Origin: a virus
IMG/VR virus record: IMGVR_UViG_3300032265_001784
Span: 1-28,138 of that record
Strand: one strand, 5' to 3'
Length of the DNA: 28,138 nucleotides
Shown: in pieces, positions 5,825 to 27,992 of the stretch
Numbering within the stretch: position 1 is the first letter of the stretch
How the letters are laid out: each line of letters begins with the position of its first letter
The notes under the pieces: generated by a model
The model's database searches: none
Told to the model about the DNA's origin: nothing
What the model saw: only the letters and a program-made list of their open reading frames with translations
Made by a program: the position numbers and the translations under genes

Positions 5825-6025
5825 ATGTCAAATTTTTGGGCTTGTGACGATCGAATTGATCCAGATTCAGCCATGCGGGATCTCGAAAAGAAAGTGCATT
5901 TTTTAATGCAACAATTAATGGGTGCCGGGATTATTAATACACGCGGCGGAAATGCAGCCGATGTTCCTAACGATATCGATGCTGACGGAAATGAAGTTGC
6001 CGGTCAGTTCCCCACTAATACCTAA
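5825..6025 (+). CDS. Small phage protein, unknown function (plus strand)
   Basis: 66 residues from the ATG at 5825. I chose this start over an in-frame ATG at 5738 because AGGAG lies at ideal spacing and a late-type promoter sits between the two. The protein begins MSNFWACDDRIDPD, then has a predicted helix (MRDLEKKVHFLMQQLMGAG) and an acidic, disordered-looking tail. It is one of only two plus-strand genes here and overlaps the end of the convergent nuclease gene by 4 bp. The late promoter and the neighbouring fibre gene suggest a virion or assembly role, but nothing in the sequence proves it. Confidence 0.75.
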   Translation: MSNFWACDDRIDPDSAMRDLEKKVHFLMQQLMGAGIINTRGGNAADVPNDIDADGNEVAGQFPTNT

Positions 6026-6735
6026 GCCTGCAGGTAGTACAGTTCTAGTCTACGCCACCATTGGTCGGACCAGTAGTCAAAATCTTCCGGTTTTAATATA
6101 AATTCTTGATATTGTGGGCGACCCAGAGGATTGCCCATAGCATCTATTTCAGGTTTCACACACATCAGCACCACACCCTTGCGTATATTTGTGCCATACA
6201 CTTCATTGTGTGCCAAGGCATAGGCAGTAAGTTGCAAATAATAGTCTTCAATCCACTCCTGCCGCTTGGGCTTGTTAGTTTGTTTATAGTCTAGTATTGA
6301 TTCGTCACCCAAGTGTATACCACAGCCATCAGTGGTGCCAGCATATAGGCTAGGAAAATACAAGGGTATTTCTACTCCCCAAAACTCTGACACATTTTGT
6401 AAACCATCTTCGATCACTGTTTGTGCCATAGCATGGCTGGCCCACCCAAACGGATTCGATCCGCGGTCTTTGAGCTCGCCTGTTTTTACATAGTGCTCAA
6501 GATAGGTGTGCATGCGAGTGCCACGATTGGCCGCTTCGGTGGTAATAGCCTGTGCCTGTGCATGGCCTACACGATTACGCCATTGTTGTAGCGCGGCTTT
6601 TTTTTCTTCGGGTTTGGTTTTTTCTAATACCGTGGTCACACTAGGAACACGCTTGCCATCTGGAGTAAGATATAATCTTTTTCCTTCTTCGGTAGTCCTA
6701 CTCAGTTCATGATAGTTAAATTTTGGATTGTACAT
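6022..6735 (-). CDS. PD-(D/E)XK nuclease, RecB/Cas4-like exonuclease
   Basis: 237 residues. The order of motifs fits the RecB-family PD-(D/E)XK fold: RGTRMH (H76), TTDG (D136), ILDYKQ (D149-Y-K151) as the catalytic D-x-K, and Q168-x3-Y172 (QLTAY), the QxxxY motif typical of RecB/AddB/Cas4-type nucleases. No cysteine cluster for an Fe-S site is evident. It probably degrades or processes DNA during phage replication or recombination. It has its own near-consensus sigma70 promoter, pointing to early expression. The ATG is 6 bp after the -10 box and has no ribosome binding site, so the mRNA is predicted to be leaderless. Confidence 0.85.
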   Translation of the reverse strand: MYNPKFNYHELSRTTEEGKRLYLTPDGKRVPSVTTVLEKTKPEEKKAALQQWRNRVGHAQAQAITTEAANRGTRMHTYLEHYVKTGELKDRGSNPFGWASHAMAQTVIEDGLQNVSEFWGVEIPLYFPSLYAGTTDGCGIHLGDESILDYKQTNKPKRQEWIEDYYLQLTAYALAHNEVYGTNIRKGVVLMCVKPEIDAMGNPLGRPQYQEFILKPEDFDYWSDQWWRRLELYYLQA

Positions 6736-6741
6736 TAGATA

Positions 6742-6771
6742 ATTATAACAGTATTATGGTTCGATTGTCAA
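6742..6771 (-). promoter_or_regulatory. Consensus sigma70 promoter for the nuclease gene
   Basis: TTGACA at 6771-6766, an 18-bp spacer, and TATAAT at 6747-6742 on the minus strand; both hexamers are perfect. The -35 lies inside the last codons of the upstream SGNH gene. The -10 ends 6 bp before the ATG at 6735, so transcription should start at or next to the A of the start codon. Confidence 0.85.
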
Positions 6772-7464: not shown

Positions 7465-8115
7465 TTACAAATATTGTTTTATTTTTTTAAAAATTTCGTA
7501 GTGTACTTCCTTACTAGGATGTCCAAAATCTGGAAACCAATTTTTTGCTGCCTGAAATGCATTAATTTTCTGTTCAATTTTATTCATAACATCTAATGCC
7601 AATTCTTTTATTTTTATATGGTGTATTTCTTTTATCTCGCCAAACATTGATTTAGGAAAATCTGCGATTACCAAAGAACTGATACTTGGAATTGGAATTT
7701 TAATTTTACTAAACTGTAATTGGATTATTTCACTAGGAATGTCGCATAGACCACCCAATGCATAAATTGTTAAATTATATTTTTCAGCTAGATACTCGGC
7801 ATAGTCAAACACAATTTTTAGTTGTTGTATTCCAAATTCGTCAGGACTGTTGTATATAGTACCACCGGGCCAACGCAATGGACAAGTTACAAACCAAAAT
7901 ACAGTGTTAAAATTTACAGCAGTGGATTGGAGATAATTTTCAAGGCTATCAATTGATTCAAAATTTTGATTGCCACCGCGAGATAAATTTATTACCTTGT
8001 GATCATGTTCTATTAGAAATTGCTCTAGACCAGCATGTGTGATTGTTGCACCAATGACATTTGGCACAAAATTCCATTCTCCGCACCCCCAACTATCACC
8101 AATAATTGCAATCAA
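7465..8115 (-). CDS. SGNH-like hydrolase, TTG start
   Basis: 216 residues. [10 protein letters not shown] carries the GDS nucleophile block (S8), SRGGNQN (G47, N49) is block II, and [10 protein letters not shown] (D196, H199) is the C-terminal DxxH block. It differs strongly in sequence from the neighbouring SGNH gene, so the pair is not a recent duplication. The start must be TTG at 8115: it overlaps the IscA stop (TTGA), an in-frame stop lies upstream, and any later start would remove the catalytic block. The protein is lysine- and isoleucine-rich with no signal peptide. Its substrate is unknown. Confidence 0.75.
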
Positions 8116-8432
8116 ACTCTAAAACTTTCTCCGCACCCACAGCGGTCTTTTTCATTGGGGTTGGTAAATTCAAAGCCTTCATTTAGTCCTTGACGCACAT
8201 AGTCTATTTGTAGGCCTTCAAGATACACACTACTCTTAGGATCAACGACAATAACAAATCCTGCTTGCTCATAGGCAATATCTTCAGAATTAACTGTATC
8301 AATATATTCTAACACATAGGCCAGGCCACTACAGCCTGTGGTTTTTACCCCAAGTCGAATGCCTAGGCCTGTTCCACGCTTGTTGAGGTTGGTGACAATT
8401 TTTTTGGCAGCTGTGTCAGTTACTGTGATCAT
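8112..8432 (-). CDS. iscA: IscA-type Fe-S cluster carrier protein
   Basis: 106 residues, standard length for the HesB/IscA/ErpA family. The three cluster-ligand cysteines are present: C34 (TTGCSG) and C98 and C100 in the terminal CGCGESF motif. The segment [10 protein letters not shown] before them is typical of IscA. Such A-type carriers receive Fe-S clusters from IscU and pass them to apo-enzymes. It overlaps the end of a radical SAM gene by 17 bp and lies two genes after a phage iscU, so a dedicated delivery role to the radical SAM protein is plausible (inference). IscA is a better fit than ErpA, but the two are hard to separate by eye. Confidence 0.93.
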
Positions 8433-9450
8433 ATTTTTTTTTATTTGTTAGTATCTGTTCTTTGCACGAGCGTTGACAATTAAAATGCCAGCCTTCTTCG
8501 GCCCCCAATAGTGATTCTACTAGATTATTATTAAAAAATTTATTGCCCAACACAGTTGAAATAGTATTCAGCAACAACGACTGATTGTCTAATCCGGCAG
8601 TTAGTTGTTTCATGTGGTCGGTACCAAAGTAATTTAGTTCTGTATCAAAATGCATCATGCAACAGGGTATTACATGTCCCAGATGATTAATATATATCTG
8701 CCCTTGACTCAAGTTGGGACAAATTTGATTGGTATATACTGGTGGTTTTATCAAGTTATATTTTCTATACCTGATGTGTTGCATTTGATTAATGTCAACT
8801 GTGGTGGGCTCTATATGATGGCTGATTTCGCCATTGACCCGCACTGGCCATTTTTCCAATCCTAGAAATCTATAACGATCACCTGGGCCAAAGAGCAAAG
8901 CTGAAAATCCATATTCCTTTGATAATTTTTTAATTTCTTCAAGTTGATGTTCGTTGTGCTTGAACAATAAAAATTTCCATATAGCATAGCCACCGCCCTT
9001 GGCAAACGCCCTGGCATTATCCATGGCTTTGTTATAGTTTACTCCTACCCTGTAAAAGTGATTGGTATCCTCTAGTCCATCTATACTAAACAAGACTCTA
9101 AGATTTGGATACTGTTGACCTAAATTGTTCCACCAGGCAGTACTTCGTATTCCACCGTTGGTCATTAAATGAATTACCGGGCGAGAAGGCAACTTGTAAA
9201 AAGCATCAATGAATTTTTCTATTTCAGGGTGCATGATTGGATCACCCTTGTCACCTTCTAATATCACTTCAGATAAAGATGTCAATGACGATAATTGTAA
9301 ATTTTCTAAAACTGTGTCAATGTCCAAGTGTAGCAGTGCAAGGTCGGGATGTAGATCGCCCACATCATCAAATCTTCCACAATGTGGGCATCGAGCATTA
9401 CAGTAGCTAGTAGGTTCAAATTGTAAAGTTTGTATATCGGCCGGCGTCAT
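8416..9450 (-). CDS. Radical SAM protein with SPASM-like C-terminus
   Basis: 344 residues. C17-x3-C21-x2-C24 (CNARCPHC) binds the [4Fe-4S] cluster that cleaves S-adenosylmethionine; GDKGDP (66-71) and the TNGG motif (97-100) fit the barrel core. Further cysteines at C244, C263/C264, C325 and C329 resemble a SPASM/twitch auxiliary cluster domain, as in enzymes that modify peptides or small substrates. The substrate is not evident. The start ATG overlaps the iscU stop (ATGA) and the 3' end overlaps iscA, so the enzyme is embedded between two Fe-S assembly genes. A relative with the same layout lies at 16491-17498. Confidence 0.9.
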
Positions 9451-9827
9451 TGTGCCTGCTTTGCTCTGTAGTCATCTATAGCGGCCTTAATAGCGTCTTC
9501 CGCAAGGATACTGCAATGGATCTTAACCGGGGGTAAACAGAGCTCTTCTGCAATCTGCACATTCTTAATAGATCCAGCTTGCTCCAGCGTTTTACCCTTG
9601 ACCCATTCCGTGACGAGCGAACTACTCGCGATCGCCGATCCACAGCCATAAGTTTTGAATTTTGCATCTGTTATAATCCCATCTTCTACCTTGATTTGTA
9701 ACTTCATTACATCACCACAAGCCGGTGCTCCTACCATGCCGGTGCCAATGCCTGCTTCGTCCTTGGCAAATGATCCCACGTTGCGTGGATTTTCGTAATG
9801 GTCGATTACTTTGTCGCTATAGGCCAT
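9447..9827 (-). CDS. iscU: IscU Fe-S cluster assembly scaffold
   Basis: 126 residues, very close to proteobacterial IscU over its whole length (for example VIDHYENPRNVGSF, GMVGAPACGDVMKLQIKV and IHCSILAEDAIKAA). Cluster ligands C37, C62 and C105 and D39 are all kept, as is the LPPVK motif (98-102) recognised by the chaperone HscA. An additional cysteine, C97, directly precedes LPPVK where bacterial proteins usually have another residue. IscU builds [2Fe-2S]/[4Fe-4S] clusters with sulfur from IscS. No IscS, HscA, HscB or ferredoxin gene is in this window, so the phage protein would have to work with host partners. AGGAAA precedes the ATG. Host-to-phage transfer is the likely origin. Confidence 0.97.
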   Translation of the reverse strand: MAYSDKVIDHYENPRNVGSFAKDEAGIGTGMVGAPACGDVMKLQIKVEDGIITDAKFKTYGCGSAIASSSLVTEWVKGKTLEQAGSIKNVQIAEELCLPPVKIHCSILAEDAIKAAIDDYRAKQAQ

Positions 9828-10308: not shown

Positions 10309-10324
10309 GTTTGCCTCCTAATTA

Positions 10325-10353
10325 ACTATACAATATTATAAGGTCTATGTCAA
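10325..10353 (-). promoter_or_regulatory. Sigma70 promoter for the exported protein-iscU operon
   Basis: TTGACA at 10353-10348, a 17-bp spacer and TATAGT at 10330-10325 on the minus strand. An additional TATAAT at 10340-10335 lies in the spacer without a matching -35. The block from TATAAT through TATAGTTAA is nearly the same as one upstream of the AAA ATPase gene. The leader contains AGGAGG. Confidence 0.75.
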
Positions 10354-17498: not shown

Positions 17499-18904
17499 GA
17501 TTGTTTAATTTGACCCAACAACTGTTTGAGTTTGGCGCTCTGTACATCGGCTGTAATCCGACCTGTGTCCTCTCGCTCTGCTGGATTGGCTGATTCTGCA
17601 CCATTAATCATGATACTTTTTGCCTTGATTGAGTCTAATAAATTGCCGCCTGGCCGTTTGAATCCGGTCTGTTCTTCTTCGCCCGGATCAGTAATACGCA
17701 TGGTTTCAATGTTATAGTCCAGATCAATCTTCATGCCTACACCTGTTGAACTACGCGATTTCATGCATTGTATCTGATACTTGCCTCGCTCACGCATGGC
17801 TCTACTTGTAAAAATGCCAAACACATTGTCTGCGGTATTGATCTTAGAGATACCACCACTAATATGACTGTGGTCAAATTCAATTTCTTCTACTGCGCTA
17901 CGATTCAACTGACTAGCTGTTACAAACAGCACATTGAGCTCCTTGGCCAAATTACGCAATTCTTCACTCACATACTTGTCTTTGACAAACAGATCATTAG
18001 GACTAACCTTGGCACTAACTGGCATTAGTAGGTCCAGGTAATCACACATAATAAAATCTACCTTGATGCCTGTTTGTACCTGTACTTCTTTAATATAACT
18101 GCGAATATCATTGATGTTGCTCTGTGCTGGTAGTGCTTTGATACGATACTGTCCAGCTTTCTTGCTGACCAGCTTGACCTTGAGCTCAGTTTGATCTATG
18201 TCCTTGCGGATTTCTTTTGTACTCATTCCGGCCAACATGGCATCTGTTCTAAGCGCACATAGTTCTTCTGAAAGTTCTAAACTGATATACACACCACTCA
18301 GTCCTGCTTGCAACCAACTCAGTGCTATATTCATCATAACAAGCGATTTACCTGACCCAGATCCACCGGCAAAAATGTTTAGTTCGCCGCGACTAAATCC
18401 GCCATATAAAATCTTGTCCATCTGTGGCCAGCCTGTGCTCACTTGTCCGCCAGAATTAAAATACTTGTCGATGCGTTGTCTAGGGTCCGCCCAGTAGTCT
18501 GTACCCATGTCTTTGGTTAGACTGATTTGAACTGCATCTTTAATTAATTTTTCTACCGGATCATACTCGCCCTTTTCCAGTAGGTCGGCACTTTTTAAAA
18601 TTGCACGCTCTAGCTCTTGACGACGAGTAAATGATTCAAACTCGTCCATGAACCATTCAAAGTGTCCTTCGTTAAGTTCAGGCACATGAGTTAATTTTAC
18701 ACCAGTTGCGGCTGCCACCTGTTCTAATGCTGGTAAGGTCTTGTGTTCATCACTATGTTTGGCAATAAACTCGGCTGCAGGCCTAAGACTGCGATCAAAG
18801 TTTTCTGGATTGTAAATGTTCTGCACACGCACATATGACTCTGCGTCTTGCAACATCATTTCTAAGAATAGTTTTTGGACATCAAGCCCGTAGTCTTTTA
18901 ACAA
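17495..18904 (-). CDS. 41: Replicative DNA helicase, T4 gp41 / DnaB-like
   Basis: 469 residues, close to T4 gp41 in length. An N-terminal helical domain is followed by a RecA-type motor: Walker A GGSGSGKS (180-187), the segment ISLELSEE (207-214), Walker B-like VDFIMCDYLD (282-291) and TASQLNR (329-335). As a hexamer it unwinds the replication fork 5'-3' with the primase. The gene overlaps the primase gene by 23 bp. The start is TTG at 18904, preceded by AAGGAAGA; an in-frame stop lies just upstream and the next ATG would cut into the N-terminal domain. The C-terminal 60 residues are polar and probably disordered. Confidence 0.93.
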   Translation of the reverse strand: MLKDYGLDVQKLFLEMMLQDAESYVRVQNIYNPENFDRSLRPAAEFIAKHSDEHKTLPALEQVAAATGVKLTHVPELNEGHFEWFMDEFESFTRRQELERAILKSADLLEKGEYDPVEKLIKDAVQISLTKDMGTDYWADPRQRIDKYFNSGGQVSTGWPQMDKILYGGFSRGELNIFAGGSGSGKSLVMMNIALSWLQAGLSGVYISLELSEELCALRTDAMLAGMSTKEIRKDIDQTELKVKLVSKKAGQYRIKALPAQSNINDIRSYIKEVQVQTGIKVDFIMCDYLDLLMPVSAKVSPNDLFVKDKYVSEELRNLAKELNVLFVTASQLNRSAVEEIEFDHSHISGGISKINTADNVFGIFTSRAMRERGKYQIQCMKSRSSTGVGMKIDLDYNIETMRITDPGEEEQTGFKRPGGNLLDSIKAKSIMINGAESANPAEREDTGRITADVQSAKLKQLLGQIKQS

Positions 18905-19844
18905 GTTGTTTCTTCCTTAGTTCTATTTTAATTTTACTAGTTTCTCGGGCTTGCATTATAGTTATCAATGCACCTAGTCTACCCAAACGAATTACTGCAT
19001 CGTTTACATCCTTAATACCGTTAGGCCACTCGGGCATACTAACAGACCATCCTAGTTCTACTGCACGGTCTACTAGCTTCATGCCAGCTGTGTCCTGGTC
19101 TGGCACTACAACAACTTCATTACCGAGACTACGAATTAGTTTAACCTGCGCATCGTTAATCTCTGCGTGTAATACTGCAAGTCCATTGATACTCAATGCA
19201 TCAAATACACCCTCAACAACAATAGAATATTGCCAGGTGGCGCTTTGTAAGTCTGTACCAAATACATAGCCATGCTGTATGTCTTGAATATACCTGGGTG
19301 TACGATCATCTAAAAATCTTGTTGTATGCCCTACCACTTGATTATTGTGTGTGAACGGAATTACAACACCCGGGCGCGGCATTGTTTTATACAAAAATGG
19401 ATAGTCCAGAGGCACACATCTTTTACGCAAATATTCTTCAGCTTGTTCGGTGAGTGGTTGTGTATCAGCGGGTAGGTCTCGATCTTCAAATTCAATACTT
19501 TGTAATTGTCGTACTACTTCTTGACGCTCGCCCAGCAAACCTTCAATGGATTTGTATTTTAAACTTTCAAGATTAATGCGTTCAATTTCTTCTTGCGGTA
19601 CCGTTAGCCACTCTAATAACTTGCGAGCTTTAAATGTCAAGTTACGGCCCAATACAAAACTAGCAGTATAGCCACAGTTAAAACAGTGATATGACCACGA
19701 TCCATCTGTACCGGGCTTGATGCCGCCACGCTGTCGTTTGTCCTGTGTGTCGCCGCGATGCACACAACAAGGTGCGTTGAAACTTATCCAGCCCGAACTT
19801 GTTTGTTTTCTTTTATTAGGTAAAAAGGAAATCACATCGATCAT
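18882..19844 (-). CDS. 61: DNA primase, T4 gp61-like
   Basis: 320 residues. The N-terminal zinc-binding domain has C26/C27 and H29 (CCVH) paired with C54-x2-C57 (CFNC). The TOPRIM catalytic core has VEGVFDALS (E211) and VVPDQDTAG (D249, D251), the metal-binding acids. It makes RNA primers for lagging-strand synthesis with the gp41-type helicase encoded next to it. The C-terminus is a basic helix. The ATG is 6 bp after a TATACT box and has no ribosome binding site, so the mRNA is predicted to start at the ATG. Confidence 0.95.
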   Translation of the reverse strand: MIDVISFLPNKRKQTSSGWISFNAPCCVHRGDTQDKRQRGGIKPGTDGSWSYHCFNCGYTASFVLGRNLTFKARKLLEWLTVPQEEIERINLESLKYKSIEGLLGERQEVVRQLQSIEFEDRDLPADTQPLTEQAEEYLRKRCVPLDYPFLYKTMPRPGVVIPFTHNNQVVGHTTRFLDDRTPRYIQDIQHGYVFGTDLQSATWQYSIVVEGVFDALSINGLAVLHAEINDAQVKLIRSLGNEVVVVPDQDTAGMKLVDRAVELGWSVSMPEWPNGIKDVNDAVIRLGRLGALITIMQARETSKIKIELRKKQLVKRLRA

Positions 19845-19850
19845 GCTATT

Positions 19851-19879
19851 AGTATAACAGATCGTTTGGCAAATCGCAA
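19851..19879 (-). promoter_or_regulatory. Sigma70-type promoter for primase-helicase operon
   Basis: TTGCGA at 19879-19874, 17-bp spacer, TATACT at 19856-19851, preceded by TGT. The -10 ends exactly 6 bp before the ATG at 19844. It lies in the 45-bp gap after the structural gene. Confidence 0.7.
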
Positions 19880-19889
19880 CTAGATTAGA

Positions 19890-21044
19890 TTATCTATAGT
19901 AGAGATTTTCCACAAAACCGGTGCCAATCAAAACCATAGCACCTTGTTGATTTGGGGGAACCGGATAGTAAGGAGTGTTTACTCCGGCGTTGGGGACTAA
20001 CCAATAACCCGATCCGCCGTGTGTAACCGTAATACTTTCGATTGATCCATTGCCGCCCAATGTAGCTACAGCGGTAGCTCCTGAACCGTCACCTACAATT
20101 GAAATCTGTGGCGGTGCCAAGTAGCCAGCTCCGGAATTCTGGACCACAATATCAGTTACCACGCCATTATTACAAATAGCGTAGGCACTAGCTGGTACAC
20201 CTTGACCATTCGGTACAGCAAAAATACTGTTGTTAAAACAAAGACGCATTAGCGGATACCAACCAATCACATTCATATAAATGGTGCCGGTATGGTTATA
20301 ATAAGTAGTCGACTCAGTGGCATTGATAGGAACTGATTCATAATTTTCGGCCCATTGTGCTTTAATAGTTCCGGTATATCCAACCAGGTCCATTTGAATT
20401 GTAGTAATACTGTTTTGTGGTTCAATAAAACTACTATAAAATTCAGTGTTTAGAAAACTGTTCCAATAATTGCCGCCATTAGGATTGCCATTCCAGTAGT
20501 AATCTGAATAGCTTGGATAGTTGGCAAAGCTAGCACCATCATAACTACCTTGTGCTGACATTTTAACTGTAGGAATAGTAAGTGGCCAACTGGGTACATA
20601 TTGCGGAAATACGCTGTTAACAATATCTACAGGAGCCCGTGCCCCTGATTGTGCATTGGTAAACACTGCTTCGTTGAGATTTCCGCTAGCACGACTTATA
20701 CTATAGCTTGCCGGTTGAGCTAGCACTTCCAATAAATCTGAACCAGATATAGTTACTTTAGCACGACCCAATGCAGCATTCAATATGACCATGGGCTCCT
20801 CTACCAGTATTTCAGTTCCTGCGGTGTTGATTACACGGAACATAAAACTGCTACCTGTTATATTTACAGGTTTTTCCTCTTGATTTATGAATTGAAACAA
20901 CAATACGTTGTCAACTCCTTTATTGATAGTTAGTTTTTTAGCGTACACGGGGTTATACCTATAAATGAAAGATTCTCCGTCGACGGTGTCTATGGTCAGC
21001 ACTGATGTTATCTGTTGGTATATATAGGCGTCGGTAGAATACAT
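19890..21044 (-). CDS. Virion structural protein (tail/fibre-like)
   Basis: 384 residues from the ATG at 21044. The frame stays open to 21182, but a perfect late promoter ends 5 bp before 21044 and the extension would run antisense through another gene. Residues 1-100 (MYSTDAYIYQQ, NPVYAKKLTINKGVDNVL) resemble the N-terminal domain of T4-like cyanophage structural proteins. The C-terminal part has the beta motif GAGYLAPPQISIVGDGSGA followed by GGSGYWLVP, common in phage fibre and baseplate proteins. No ribosome binding site precedes the ATG. Exact place in the virion is unknown. Confidence 0.82.
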   Translation of the reverse strand: MYSTDAYIYQQITSVLTIDTVDGESFIYRYNPVYAKKLTINKGVDNVLLFQFINQEEKPVNITGSSFMFRVINTAGTEILVEEPMVILNAALGRAKVTISGSDLLEVLAQPASYSISRASGNLNEAVFTNAQSGARAPVDIVNSVFPQYVPSWPLTIPTVKMSAQGSYDGASFANYPSYSDYYWNGNPNGGNYWNSFLNTEFYSSFIEPQNSITTIQMDLVGYTGTIKAQWAENYESVPINATESTTYYNHTGTIYMNVIGWYPLMRLCFNNSIFAVPNGQGVPASAYAICNNGVVTDIVVQNSGAGYLAPPQISIVGDGSGATAVATLGGNGSIESITVTHGGSGYWLVPNAGVNTPYYPVPPNQQGAMVLIGTGFVENLYYR

Positions 21045-21049
21045 AAGTG

Positions 21050-21057
21050 TATTTATA
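21050..21057 (-). promoter_or_regulatory. Perfect T4-type late promoter TATAAATA
   Basis: The minus-strand octamer is an exact match to the T4 late consensus. With the element at -13 to -6, position +1 is 21044, the A of the start codon, predicting a leaderless late mRNA. Confidence 0.8.
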
Positions 21058-21079
21058 GTTTCACCAGACTGTTCCAAAA

Positions 21080-21087
21080 CATAAATA
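21080..21087 (+). promoter_or_regulatory. Divergent late promoter candidate CATAAATA
   Basis: Plus-strand CATAAATA predicts a start near 21093, only 4 nt before the ATG at 21097. With the minus-strand site it forms a compact divergent late promoter pair in a 52-bp gap. Confidence 0.6.
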
Positions 21088-21096
21088 TCCCATATT

Positions 21097-21474
21097 ATGA
21101 ATAAAGATGTTTTTGAACAATTGGCCAAAAAATACCCATTTATAACTCTGTGTGTGTATGCCAGCACCGAGTACCTGGGCATTATACAAAATCAAGATGA
21201 AACTATAACCACCATCTACGATTTTGGCAGTATTCAGGATTTAGAAGCTAAACGCAAATTCTTAGAATTAGCCAACATTTGGTGGTGGGAATCAAACCGT
21301 AGTATACCCATCAACATATTCCTTAAAACAGAGTGGGATATTTTTAAATCTTGTCTAAGAACTTTTGTCAATAAAGATTTGGAAATACTACATGGACCGG
21401 TGTGCAGTTTAAGCGAAATGAGTCGTAAAAAGTCAAAACGCCGTAGTATTACTCTAGTCCGTCGGATGGACTAA
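21097..21474 (+). CDS. Conserved T4-like phage protein (plus strand)
   Basis: 125 residues starting MNKDVFEQLAKKYPFIT. It has an alternating beta pattern, a tryptophan-rich motif (NIWWWESNRSIPINIFLK) and a strongly basic end (RKKSKRRSITLVRRMD). The pattern recalls a conserved hypothetical protein of T4-like cyanophages. The basic tail could bind nucleic acid. It is one of two plus-strand genes, driven by a divergent late promoter, and its end overlaps the convergent DnaE-like gene by 26 bp. Function unknown. Confidence 0.75.
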   Translation: MNKDVFEQLAKKYPFITLCVYASTEYLGIIQNQDETITTIYDFGSIQDLEAKRKFLELANIWWWESNRSIPINIFLKTEWDIFKSCLRTFVNKDLEILHGPVCSLSEMSRKKSKRRSITLVRRMD

Positions 21475-23144: not shown

Positions 23145-24052
23145 TAAGTTGTAGTCTGTAAAAAATTATAAAAATGCTGATAGTTATATTTTACTATATC
23201 TTGTGCTAGATTGCAATTATATCCATCCTGAACAATAGCATCCATAACCAATTTCATTCTAATCCAGCGTTCTACTCCTTCGTATTGGTCATAATTTTCA
23301 TCCCACAAATCCGAAAAAGTTTTAAAACCTGTTTGTTTTAGATTATCTAAAAATCCAACTGGACCAAATAACAAAAATGGACGACATCCGATTATGGGCC
23401 TTGCTGTTTTTTCTGTTGGGAAAAAAGTTTCGCCTCGTGTAACCGTTTCGGCTATGATTTCAATTTGAAATTGATTATAAAAAGTCAACAAAGAACTATT
23501 TGCAGTAGGGGATGGCCCATAATGATCATCAATAGTGGTATTGTCAATTGATCCAATATTATAAATGTGCTCAGGCCACCAAGTTCCTCGAGATCCGCTA
23601 CTGAGTTTATGATTTTGTTGTATACTAATCAAACAATGTTCTTGATAATGATCGAGTATATCTTGAGCCATGGTTGCCCTGTCTTCTGTATATCGTTGCA
23701 TAAACAAACCAAACAGTTTGCCAGTCAATGTTAAGGGACGGGCATCACAAAAATATGGTGCGCCTGTTTTGGTAAAAAAATGTGTGAGTTTTAATACTGG
23801 ATTATCATATTGATAAGGAATTTTTTCGAATTGATTAGAAGTATCAATTTTAACAGTAGTAGGATCTCGTCCTGTGGCAATTACCCATTGGTCAATTACC
23901 TTTAGTATTCCAGACGCTTTAAGACTTATTCCTTCGTGTTGCATGTGAACTATCACGGTATCAAATTTATCAATGGCATACAGTTGTTGTGTCATTTCAA
24001 TTTGATTCAGCCACTTGTCACCAGAGGTATAACAATTAACTGTGATTGTCAC
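23144..24052 (-). CDS. Conserved phage protein, possible glycan-related enzyme
   Basis: 302 residues starting at GTG 24052, which shares one base with the preceding TAG. The C-terminal part has FFPTEKTARPIIGCRPFLLF followed by GFKTFSDLWDENYD. Similar segments (TEK, P, RPF, GF-TF, DE-YD) occur in many phage and giant-virus proteins, sometimes near sugar-handling genes, and faintly recall the TEK motif of GT10-type glycosyltransferases. The N-terminal half gives no motif. The enzymatic suggestion is weak; conserved hypothetical is the safe name. It is co-transcribed with four other conserved genes. Confidence 0.65.
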   Translation of the reverse strand: MTITVNCYTSGDKWLNQIEMTQQLYAIDKFDTVIVHMQHEGISLKASGILKVIDQWVIATGRDPTTVKIDTSNQFEKIPYQYDNPVLKLTHFFTKTGAPYFCDARPLTLTGKLFGLFMQRYTEDRATMAQDILDHYQEHCLISIQQNHKLSSGSRGTWWPEHIYNIGSIDNTTIDDHYGPSPTANSSLLTFYNQFQIEIIAETVTRGETFFPTEKTARPIIGCRPFLLFGPVGFLDNLKQTGFKTFSDLWDENYDQYEGVERWIRMKLVMDAIVQDGYNCNLAQDIVKYNYQHFYNFLQTTT

Positions 24053-24555
24053 TACCAGGCCTTGTTGTAGTCAACAATCTCACAGTTACGACTAATGTCT
24101 TTGACAAAATATACACAATCAGGTTCGTTACTATCGTCAACCGGTACACACAACATTTGCCCATTTTTGAGTTTGGGTGCGTACCAGGTAACTTCTTGAT
24201 ACACATCTACAATTTCAATGTCAAGGAAGCTGGGGCGGAAACTGCTGAGTGGATTAAATTGAAAAGCCTTGAACCCTCGATCATTTATAGCAGTAAGCGG
24301 TAATACTTCCAAGTCACCCAAGTCAGGTTCGCCAATTAAGATTTGCCAATCCACCGGCATGCGTACAATATTTGTGCCAATACGTAAGACCAGAGCAGGG
24401 CTGGTAAAACTTTCCAAAAAAATCAAAGGAATATAATGATAATCCGGATCCTGCGGGTTGCTATTATCCAAGATAGCAAATCGCATGTCGTCAACTTCTT
24501 CCGGAAGATGATCTAAATCGTATGCTTGATTATGGTCTAAGGTTAATATTTTCAT
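24052..24555 (-). CDS. Conserved T4-like phage protein, early
   Basis: 167 residues: MKILTLDHNQAYDLDHLPEEVDDMRFAIL opens an acidic beta-rich domain, with PVDWQILIGEPDLGDLEVLP and NDRGFKAFQFNPLSS as the most recognisable parts, then VTWYAPKLKNGQML. I associate this with a conserved protein of T4-like marine phages whose function is unknown. It heads the five-gene operon down to 21449. Its promoter leaves 6 bp before the ATG and there is no binding site, predicting a leaderless mRNA. Confidence 0.8.
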   Translation of the reverse strand: MKILTLDHNQAYDLDHLPEEVDDMRFAILDNSNPQDPDYHYIPLIFLESFTSPALVLRIGTNIVRMPVDWQILIGEPDLGDLEVLPLTAINDRGFKAFQFNPLSSFRPSFLDIEIVDVYQEVTWYAPKLKNGQMLCVPVDDSNEPDCVYFVKDISRNCEIVDYNKAW

Positions 24556-24561
24556 ACAATC

Positions 24562-24589
24562 ATTATAACATATTTGTTTGTAGTTGCAA
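24562..24589 (-). promoter_or_regulatory. Sigma70-type promoter for the 24555 operon
   Basis: TATAAT at 24567-24562 preceded by TGT, with TTGCAA at 24589-24584 (16-bp spacer) as -35. The -10 ends exactly 6 bp before the ATG at 24555. Confidence 0.7.
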
Positions 24590-24592
24590 CCT

Positions 24593-25324
24593 TTATTTCC
24601 ATTCTATGGTCATTTGCAATAGAATTTTGGAAAAATAATCATGTGCTACTTGAGGATTATGATTTATTGTAGTGGGTTCAAATCCATAGGGCATTGACCA
24701 AGGTAGCTTATCGTTCCAAAGACTATGACCAACAAATGACCAATCACAATTTATCATACCGGTGGACGGAATCAAAACAAATGGTATATTTAAACTCATG
24801 AGTCGGCGAACTCCGTCAGCTATGATAAAATAATCTTTCATAGTTGCAATGGCATTGTTATGCATATAAGCAGTATACTGCTTTACGGCTTCTAGAATTG
24901 CAGGAACATTTGCCGGATCTTCATAGCCCTTAGGCAACAGGTCAGCTGGAAAACTACCTATACTGTCACTAATAATTTTAGGATTTAAATTATCAATGTT
25001 ATTGGCACTATCTGAACTGTAATGTATATAACCCACATCTCGTATGTTGATTGGTAGATCGATCTTTTTTGCCTGTGCCTGTATAGGCAAATCAATTCGA
25101 TCACTGCTAGTAGTTCCTATCACTACAAAATCAGCGTCTTGCTGAATGGCTTCTTCTATTTGCAATCTGATTAAAAAATTTGTTGCTCCGGCACGACCTA
25201 AACTAACATGTTTAAAGTTTTTTTCTTGTGCATACAGATCTAAGAAACTAGTAATAGCATGACACCCACCAAAATCAACGGACATAAAACTACAACCACA
25301 GGTGTATAATTGTTTTATTTCCAC
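24593..25324 (-). CDS. SGNH-like protein, GTG start
   Basis: 243 residues. CGCSFMS (S12) is the SGNH nucleophile block, SLGRAGATN (about 41-49) is block II with its Gly and Asn, and VVIGTTSSDRI follows as in phage SGNH-like proteins. A C-terminal NHNPQVAHDYF region could supply the histidine, but a clear DxxH is not seen, so activity is less certain than for the two genes at 6754-8115. The start is GTG at 25324, 10 bp inside the end of the uvsW gene. Cytoplasmic; substrate unknown. Confidence 0.7.
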   Translation of the reverse strand: MEIKQLYTCGCSFMSVDFGGCHAITSFLDLYAQEKNFKHVSLGRAGATNFLIRLQIEEAIQQDADFVVIGTTSSDRIDLPIQAQAKKIDLPINIRDVGYIHYSSDSANNIDNLNPKIISDSIGSFPADLLPKGYEDPANVPAILEAVKQYTAYMHNNAIATMKDYFIIADGVRRLMSLNIPFVLIPSTGMINCDWSFVGHSLWNDKLPWSMPYGFEPTTINHNPQVAHDYFSKILLQMTIEWK

Positions 25325-26775
25325 TCTAATTTTTCTTGTGTAAATGGATAGTTGGCTTCTTTATAAAACTGTTTGCGTTTAGTCAGATGTCGTTTAGCAA
25401 ACTTACAGTTGCTGGTTACATCCCAGATTTGTACATGGTCTTTGTCTTCGGCCTTGCGTATGCCTCTTCCAATGCTTTGTATGACCCGCACAAATGATTT
25501 GCCAGGTTCCACAAGAACAAGATTAAAGATACGGGGTATATTAATACCAACAGCAGCAACACCATAGGTAGCCACAATAATTTTTCCAGTAGCTTCGGCC
25601 ACTTCATCATATTCATCTTGTCGATCCTTTGCTTTGGTTGCACCTGATACCATCACAGCACGATCGCCTAGGCGTTCTATTAAGCCTTGTCCTGCGGCAA
25701 TGCGATCAACTAATACCAGAGTATTGCCTGTCAGATTAACCTGCTGGATTAGATTGGCAATGGTATCTAGTCTGTCGGGTTCTTCTAACAGAAATTTGAG
25801 CTCGCTTTGATAATTGGCAAATTCTGCGTGATCTACCAGCTGTACAATGTTCACATGACACTGTGCCAACACACCACGATCCTGCAGTTCGCTAGCACTG
25901 AGTTGATTGATCACAGGACCTAGACTACAACGAAGTGCCTGGAATTCAAATGGTTCTTTGGGTATGGTTCCTGTAAGTCCCCAGCGCAGGGGTATACGGC
26001 TCATTACACCAGTCAACAAGGTTTTTAGTGCGTCGGCCTTGGCCATATGTACTTCGTCTACAATCACGCACACCACATCTTCCAAGAACTCCTGTATGGT
26101 ACAATCACCTACCCCCGATTTGGTATTTTTTAACAAGACATTTAGGCTTTGCCAGGTACAGATGGTATGTTGACGACCCCACTCCTTACGATCGCCAAAG
26201 TATACCCCTACATCCTGTTGCATGTTCACATAGTCTTTTTCTGTTTGTGTAACTAGACTCTTATTCGGTACAATCACAATGGTACGGCCGTGTGGTGCTA
26301 CTGCATTTGATAGTGCGGCCGTGATCACAGTTTTGCCTGCGCCTGTGGCAATCTCTTGGATACATTGTGGATTCTCAAGAAAGTTATTGATGATTTCCAC
26401 TTGATAGTCACGCAGGGCCATGGGTTGACCTTCTATGGGGTGTCCCTTGGGCCAGGCTATGTGGCTGAATGTGGATTCGGTGACCTGTTTGAAAGCAAAA
26501 TTGACACTGTAGTCTCGCTGATCATCCAGCTCAATGTCATAGTTAAACTTTTCTAAGATGGGAATAATTTCGGGCAGGAGATTTACATAGGTGCTACCAC
26601 CCAGTTGAAAGTATGAAACCTTGCCGTCCCACCGTCCAAGACGCACCGCTGGCAAGTATCTAGCACCCGGAACATCATACTTAAATGCATTGACTAAAGC
26701 TCTGCGAGCATCCAGCTCAAGGCCTTCGATCTTTATATTGACTTCATCACGGATTATAATTCTAGCTGTTCGCAT
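25315..26775 (-). CDS. uvsW: UvsW-type helicase (superfamily 2)
   Basis: 486 residues, near T4 UvsW (about 500). An N-terminal substrate-binding region (1-110) precedes an SF2 motor: Q-motif-like LRDYQVE (121-127), Walker A ATGAGKT (143-149), DEVH (240-243), LTGTI (267-271) and the arginine-finger motif QSIGRGIRKA (433-442). In T4, UvsW remodels branched DNA and removes R-loops, helping the switch from origin- to recombination-driven replication. The ATG lies 6 bp after a TACACT box and has no binding site. All key motifs are intact. Confidence 0.93.
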   Translation of the reverse strand: MRTARIIIRDEVNIKIEGLELDARRALVNAFKYDVPGARYLPAVRLGRWDGKVSYFQLGGSTYVNLLPEIIPILEKFNYDIELDDQRDYSVNFAFKQVTESTFSHIAWPKGHPIEGQPMALRDYQVEIINNFLENPQCIQEIATGAGKTVITAALSNAVAPHGRTIVIVPNKSLVTQTEKDYVNMQQDVGVYFGDRKEWGRQHTICTWQSLNVLLKNTKSGVGDCTIQEFLEDVVCVIVDEVHMAKADALKTLLTGVMSRIPLRWGLTGTIPKEPFEFQALRCSLGPVINQLSASELQDRGVLAQCHVNIVQLVDHAEFANYQSELKFLLEEPDRLDTIANLIQQVNLTGNTLVLVDRIAAGQGLIERLGDRAVMVSGATKAKDRQDEYDEVAEATGKIIVATYGVAAVGINIPRIFNLVLVEPGKSFVRVIQSIGRGIRKAEDKDHVQIWDVTSNCKFAKRHLTKRKQFYKEANYPFTQEKLEWK

Positions 26776-26781
26776 ACGGAT

Positions 26782-26811
26782 AGTGTAACATACTTAGTTG
26801 GGCAAAGTCAA
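26782..26811 (-). promoter_or_regulatory. Sigma70-type promoter for uvsW, -35 within terminator T run
   Basis: TTGACT at 26811-26806, 18-bp spacer, TACACT at 26787-26782 preceded by TGT. The -10 ends 6 bp before the ATG at 26775. The first bases of the -35 are the last T bases of the upstream terminator. Confidence 0.7.
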
Positions 26812-26836
26812 AAAAACAGGCCCCTAAAGGCCTGTT
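26810..26836 (-). terminator. Intrinsic terminator after the AAA ATPase gene
   Basis: On the minus strand AACAGGCC and GGCCTGTT form an 8-bp stem with a 6-nt loop, followed by seven T. It ends the 26899-27933 transcript and lies immediately before the uvsW promoter. Confidence 0.9.
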
Positions 26837-27933: not shown

Positions 27934-27952
27934 GGTTAGCTCCTTTTTGTTA

Positions 27953-27992
27953 ACTATACAACTATTATACTATATTGGCAATTTCTGGTCAA
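27953..27992 (-). promoter_or_regulatory. Two overlapping sigma70-type promoters for the AAA ATPase gene
   Basis: P1: TTGACC 27992-27987, 17 bp, TATAAT 27969-27964. P2: TTGCCA 27981-27976, 17 bp, TATAGT 27958-27953. P2 and its surroundings match the promoter of the 10308 operon. Both give leaders that contain AAGGAG. Confidence 0.75.

Follow-up and report, generated by a model that had tools for sequence, protein, structure and literature searches.

Sigma70-type promoters abutting start codons in a jumbo phage lineage: a set of predicted leaderless replication and repair genes

Four promoter-start codon junctions in a viral contig

The stretch of DNA analysed here (hereafter the window) is an IMG/VR record of 28,138 bases in which simple greedy gene calling places all genes but one on the minus strand. 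Four of its minus-strand genes, each predicted to be leaderless, are directly preceded by a sigma70-type promoter. The first is a gp61-like primase gene (Toprim, phrog_47; 18882-19844), with a -35 box TTGCGA at 19874-19879 and an extended -10 box TGT-TATACT at 19851-19859 that ends 6 nt before ATG 19844 (TTGCGA-17-TATACT-AATAGC-ATG). The uvsW-type helicase gene (phrog_16; 25315-26775) has its -35 box TTGACT at 26806-26811, continuous with the T-tract of a terminator, and its extended -10 box TGT-TACACT at 26782-26790 (TTGACT-18-TACACT-ATCCGT-ATG 26775). A phrog_11279 gene of unknown function (24052-24555), referred to below as the 24555 gene, carries TTGCAA at 24584-24589 and TGT-TATAAT at 24562-24570 (TTGCAA-16-TATAAT-GATTGT-ATG 24555), and a PD-(D/E)XK exonuclease gene (PDDEXK_1, phrog_298; 6022-6735) carries TTGACA at 6766-6771 and TGT-TATAAT at 6742-6750 (TTGACA-18-TATAAT-TATCTA-ATG 6735).

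A first-pass annotation had described these sites as -10 boxes ending exactly 6 bp before the ATG, accompanied by a TGT, a -35 box and no Shine-Dalgarno (SD) sequence, and all four were found to be present to the base. The -35 box lies 16-18 bp from the -10 box and TGT directly precedes the latter in every case, so that in all four genes the first T of TANNNT precedes the start codon by exactly 12 bp. Inspection of the upstream sequences revealed no SD sequence at the usual position before any of the four ATGs, an absence partly implied by the geometry itself, and each ATG is the earliest ATG, GTG or TTG past an in-frame stop. The pattern TGTTANANT-N6-ATG occurs four times in the window, always on the coding strand, against 0.19 expected, and none of 100 shuffles reached four. 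Promoter-like sites are modestly more frequent over the whole window than in its shuffles (52 vs 36), as might be the case if the boxes were chance TATAAT-like sequences, devoid of promoter activity, in AT-rich DNA. This explanation was rejected statistically by the shuffles and by distance controls and, considering in addition the distance peaks, the primase conservation and the promoter-swap series presented below, we give it practically no credence.

Other genes had been said to retain strong SD leaders, which is borne out at two places in the window. A contrasting promoter (TTGACA-17-TATAGT; 10309-10353, minus strand) has its -10 box ending 16 nt upstream of ATG 10308, the intervening 16-nt stretch containing AGGAGG, and the promoter of an AAA gene (27934-27992, minus strand) is followed by the strong SD leader AAAAAGGAG before the start codon, TTG 27933. 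As both of these genes have good promoters together with SD leaders, the two styles coexist side by side. Elsewhere on the window, a 125-aa plus-strand ORF (21097-21474) overlaps the upstream end of a minus-strand ORF (19890-21182), the true start of which is therefore probably located further downstream.

Conservation among orthologs and behind a recurrent terminator

IMG/VR loci coding for relatives of the primase, of UvsW and of the nuclease were retrieved. For the primase, 60 distinct upstream regions were compared, the presence of a promoter not being required for inclusion, and in 57 of them the best promoter ends 5-6 nt before the ATG. Once these upstream regions were anchored on the -10 box, the TTG of the -35 box proved invariant (2.0 bits per base), the spacer measured 17 bp in 56/57 and TGn was found in 51, and positions midway along the spacer carried 0.0 bits; constraint on the boxes but none on the spacer, with 16-18 bp between them in the window, is what characterizes a sigma70 promoter. 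Conservation of the -10 box in the family comparison is partly circular, sites having been chosen on the -10, and the unselected primase figure (57/60) is the cleaner one. The 24555 gene family shows a distance of exactly 6 nt in 74 of 91 rows with a promoter-proximal ATG. Many uvsW and nuclease orthologs are devoid of the promoter because they are located inside an operon. The distance is 6 nt at all four genes of the window; in relatives it is not always exactly that, the spacing varying between 5 and 7 nt.

Codons 2-20 of the primase retain their amino acids among orthologs despite many synonymous changes, indicating that translation from the promoter-proximal ATG is under selection. This observation bears on the alternative of genuine promoters combined with translation from an in-frame codon further downstream, endowed with its own ribosome-binding site, in which case the transcripts would have an ordinary leader. 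Some annotations are indeed so placed: those of the primases of Salicola phage SCTP-2 (locus L537, around position 5980) and Pseudomonas phage Paride (locus L591, around position 385) begin downstream. These two starts look misannotated, the geometry pointing to upstream codons, and it is in such cases that the geometry may serve to correct start codons in phage annotation. Given the primase codons, a similarity of UvsW to proteins of cultivated phages that begins at residue 1-3, and the specificity of the 6-nt peak for ORF-opening ATGs (see below), a downstream start is very unlikely.

A pyrimidine immediately before the ATG, an enrichment expected of a Y-1/A+1 transcription start, is found at -1 in 77% of the families with a distance of 5-6 nt versus 52% of the others (family averages). 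It is missing from most uvsW orthologs (9/24 have one) and from all nuclease orthologs (0/13), for which a 1-nt leader or a slightly shifted start is possible.

In the window, the AAA gene upstream ends in an intrinsic terminator (26815-26836, minus strand) that leads directly into the -35 box of uvsW (GGGGCCTGTTTTTTTGACTTT). The T-tract of this terminator also forms the beginning of the -35 box (26806-26836, minus strand), a compact fusion that recurs before unrelated genes in relatives. The AAA-terminator-promoter unit is followed there by uvsW or by unrelated genes, and among units with a called gene the start codon lies at 5-7 nt in 44/48, representing eight unrelated families. Genes are thus exchanged behind the unit at a maintained distance.

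Distribution in relatives, environmental viruses and cultivated phages

Considering all fetched relatives, promoter-like sites before ORF-opening ATGs number 154 at 6 nt versus approximately 13 per distance. Thirteen protein families are represented at 6 nt by three or more members, versus 0-5 families at other distances, in a per-family count that leaves out randomly fetched loci and in which a smaller bump near 29-30 nt corresponds to the leadered class. Four large relative contigs (149-337 kb), analysed with the query genes removed, yielded 28 sites at 6 nt versus 8.25 per distance (P=5e-8), and the start codons at this distance were 26 ATG, 2 GTG and no TTG, a preference for AUG like that of E. 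coli-type leaderless mRNAs to which the PA5oct primase is an exception. Recurrent members of the 6-nt class include a UvdE-type UV endonuclease, an SbcD/gp47-like nuclease, a DexA-like exonuclease, a phosphoribosyltransferase, a phrog_420 protein of unknown function and, in some relatives, the AAA gene itself; the majority of the named genes act on DNA or nucleotides. The geometry is carried by a broad clade of environmental jumbo phages of the T4 superfamily, most of them from freshwater.

An IMG/VR-wide scan for TTGACA-N16-18-TATAAT-N0-12-ATG returned at least 120 loci. Among the matches listed, ORF-opening ATGs at distances 0 to 12 numbered 3, 1, 3, 1, 2, 4, 23, 15, 3, 3, 1, 3 and 2, that is, 23 at 6 nt against a background of 2.2, and the peak was repeated with TATACT (24 vs 2.4 in the IMG/VR sample), so that both scans give a roughly tenfold excess at 6 nt among the matches listed. 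ATGs opening no ORF displayed no peak at 6 nt among the matches listed in the IMG/VR scan, and neither did the GTG version of the scan, the power of which is limited. Primases, UvsW, a DNA polymerase, a clamp-loader-like protein and nucleases (names assigned partly by eye) recur among the listed hits.

These distances also bear on the proposal that compaction alone is at work, terminator, promoter and ORF being packed together and the missing leader a tolerated by-product with no role of its own. The overlap of the uvsW -35 box with the terminator T-tract and the many window genes that overlap or abut are in keeping with it. Compaction alone, however, predicts a spread of short distances, whereas the counts at 0-4 and 8-12 nt are at background, and leadered SD promoters persist beside the abutting ones. 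We regard this proposal as a serious possibility, albeit one we lean somewhat against; it shares the leaderless mechanism and differs from our reading solely on purpose.

Nucleotide searches of cultivated phages returned nothing close. At the protein level, the primases of PA5oct and Paride (approximately 30% identity) are preceded by TTGACA-17-TATAAT-GTGCGC-GTG and that of SCTP-2 (approximately 30% identity) by TTGACA-16-TAGCAT-AGCTAT-ATG, all at a distance of 6 nt; the annotated start of the PA5oct primase is a GTG touching the -10 box, unlike the GTG predicted from the geometry. HTVC008M has four sites at 6 nt, a possible small excess. The genomes of T4 and Syn9 show no 6-nt peak, and the primases of T4, JNE01, CBB, XbC2, Vibrio 2.275, Atu_ph07 and Phosso are devoid of the promoter arrangement, on which grounds a general T4-like trait was rejected. 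The trait is enriched in certain lineages rather than universal.

A homing-endonuclease-like gene (identified by eye) lies at 698-1372 of the window (minus strand), and a relative in genome G007 (G007:C1:44745) is preceded by a separate promoter at 5 nt from the ATG; mobile genes may thus also adopt the promoter-abutting-ATG arrangement.

Leaderless initiation, host practice and known systems

No other explanation of the four sites comes near that of leaderless mRNA, which, as judged from sequence, is highly probable. The -35 and extended TGn -10 boxes would be used by host RNA polymerase; as transcription usually starts about 7 nt downstream of the -10 box, a box ending 6 nt before the ATG would place the start at its A, yielding mRNAs with a leader of 0-1 nt that would be translated from the 5'-terminal AUG independently of an SD sequence. 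Selection maintains this geometry, which serves a recurrent set of genes for DNA replication, repair and nucleotides; SD leaders are retained elsewhere. The initial prediction of sigma70 promoters driving transcription from the A of the ATG finds strong support in the conserved spacing and the free spacer sequence, as well as in the promoter-swap series, the ATG specificity, the -1 pyrimidine and the conserved codons after the ATG. Less readily accommodated are the GTG of the PA5oct primase, the want of -1 pyrimidine enrichment in uvsW and nuclease orthologs, the many such orthologs lying promoterless inside operons, and T4 and Syn9, which have no peak. In T4, uvsW is a late gene and gp61 a middle gene. 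The early timing proposed for these genes, 70S-type initiation during infection, a benefit from undissociated 70S ribosomes, and a fitness benefit at large are conjectural. 70S ribosomes bind leaderless mRNAs at the 5' AUG, and starts other than AUG function poorly on such mRNAs in E. coli and Caulobacter (PMC9031893; PMC4965119), with which the ATG preference of the relatives is consistent.

Phages of bacteria that rely on leaderless genes as a matter of course (Actinobacteria, Deinococcus) might simply follow their host. Many genes of such bacteria are leaderless and of the TA-led type (PMC3160421, PMC12340547). Against this stand the near absence of non-ATG starts at 6 nt, whereas actinobacteria accept GUG (PMC9031893), the -35 box, which is retained here unlike in Deinococcus, and the primase geometry of PA5oct and Paride, both of which grow on Pseudomonas. 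The scan described above for IMG/VR, applied to bacterial genomes, mostly Firmicutes, gave only 6 sites at 6 nt versus 1.9, suggesting at most a weak version of the arrangement in that sample. The window also encodes IscU and, judging by eye, an IscA/HesB-like ORF (IscA/HesB-like and IscU at 8112-8432 and 9447-9827, minus strand), adjoined by a radical SAM-like ORF; among solved bacterial IscU proteins, those of the proteobacterial type most resemble the phage one, and these Fe-S assembly genes, an unusual cargo, hint at a proteobacterial host. Altogether, we find it improbable that the arrangement mainly reflects host practice.

Leaderless genes with an abutting -10 box are already known. The mRNA of lambda cI begins at the A of its AUG, from the host sigma70 promoter PRM, much as is predicted here; this classical case concerns one repressor, in a temperate phage, whereas the present one would involve a replication and repair gene set across a clade. 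The cI mRNA has been named as leaderless (PMC4965119), and phage transcripts have been remarked in one paper to be often leaderless (PMC5312081). In TA-led bacterial genes, approximately 12 bp separate the first T of TANNNT from the start (Zheng et al. 2011, PMC3160421), compared to exactly 12 bp here; the window genes likewise have no SD sequence, and they open at the first start codon after a stop, with coding constraint from codon 2 in the primase. TA-led genes were defined in cellular genomes, whereas here the carriers are phages, ATG is nearly exclusive and the -35 box is conserved. In Deinococcus-Thermus, a -10 motif TANNNT located 6-7 bp before the ORF needs no -35 box; the absence of an expected 5' UTR, the coexistence of RBS-type genes and misannotated starts are shared features, but there the -10 box without a -35 serves about a third of all genes with no preferred pathway (PMC12340547). 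Here, the -35 box (its TTG invariant in primase orthologs) and the extended -10 box are kept, and the genes are few, most of those named acting on DNA or nucleotides. T4 gp61 and uvsW have orthologous functions, but gp61 has no such upstream promoter and the T4 genome no 6-nt peak.

What looks new is the wiring of a conserved replication and repair gene set with abutting promoters in T4-superfamily jumbo phages. A literature search found no survey of leaderless genes in phages, nor of such a leaderless set in jumbo phages, earlier reports in phage transcriptome studies being possible. If confirmed, it would mean that lytic phages rely on leaderless mRNA as a matter of strategy for a whole functional class, and not just for a single repressor. 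We tentatively propose, granting that the proposal has somewhat less than an even chance of being correct, a lineage-wide programme in which this large clade of uncultivated phages keeps its replication, recombination and repair set leaderless, with translation independent of, or timed against, SD-dependent initiation and the ATG held at +1 despite gene exchange behind the promoter. What fixes the ATG at +1 can be asked of the promoter swaps that nature has made in this clade, and the growth of PA5oct and Paride on laboratory Pseudomonas makes a direct test feasible. Finally, a small secreted-looking protein with tandem QGSYGNTDIKGSYGNT repeats is encoded at 336-701 of the window (minus strand).
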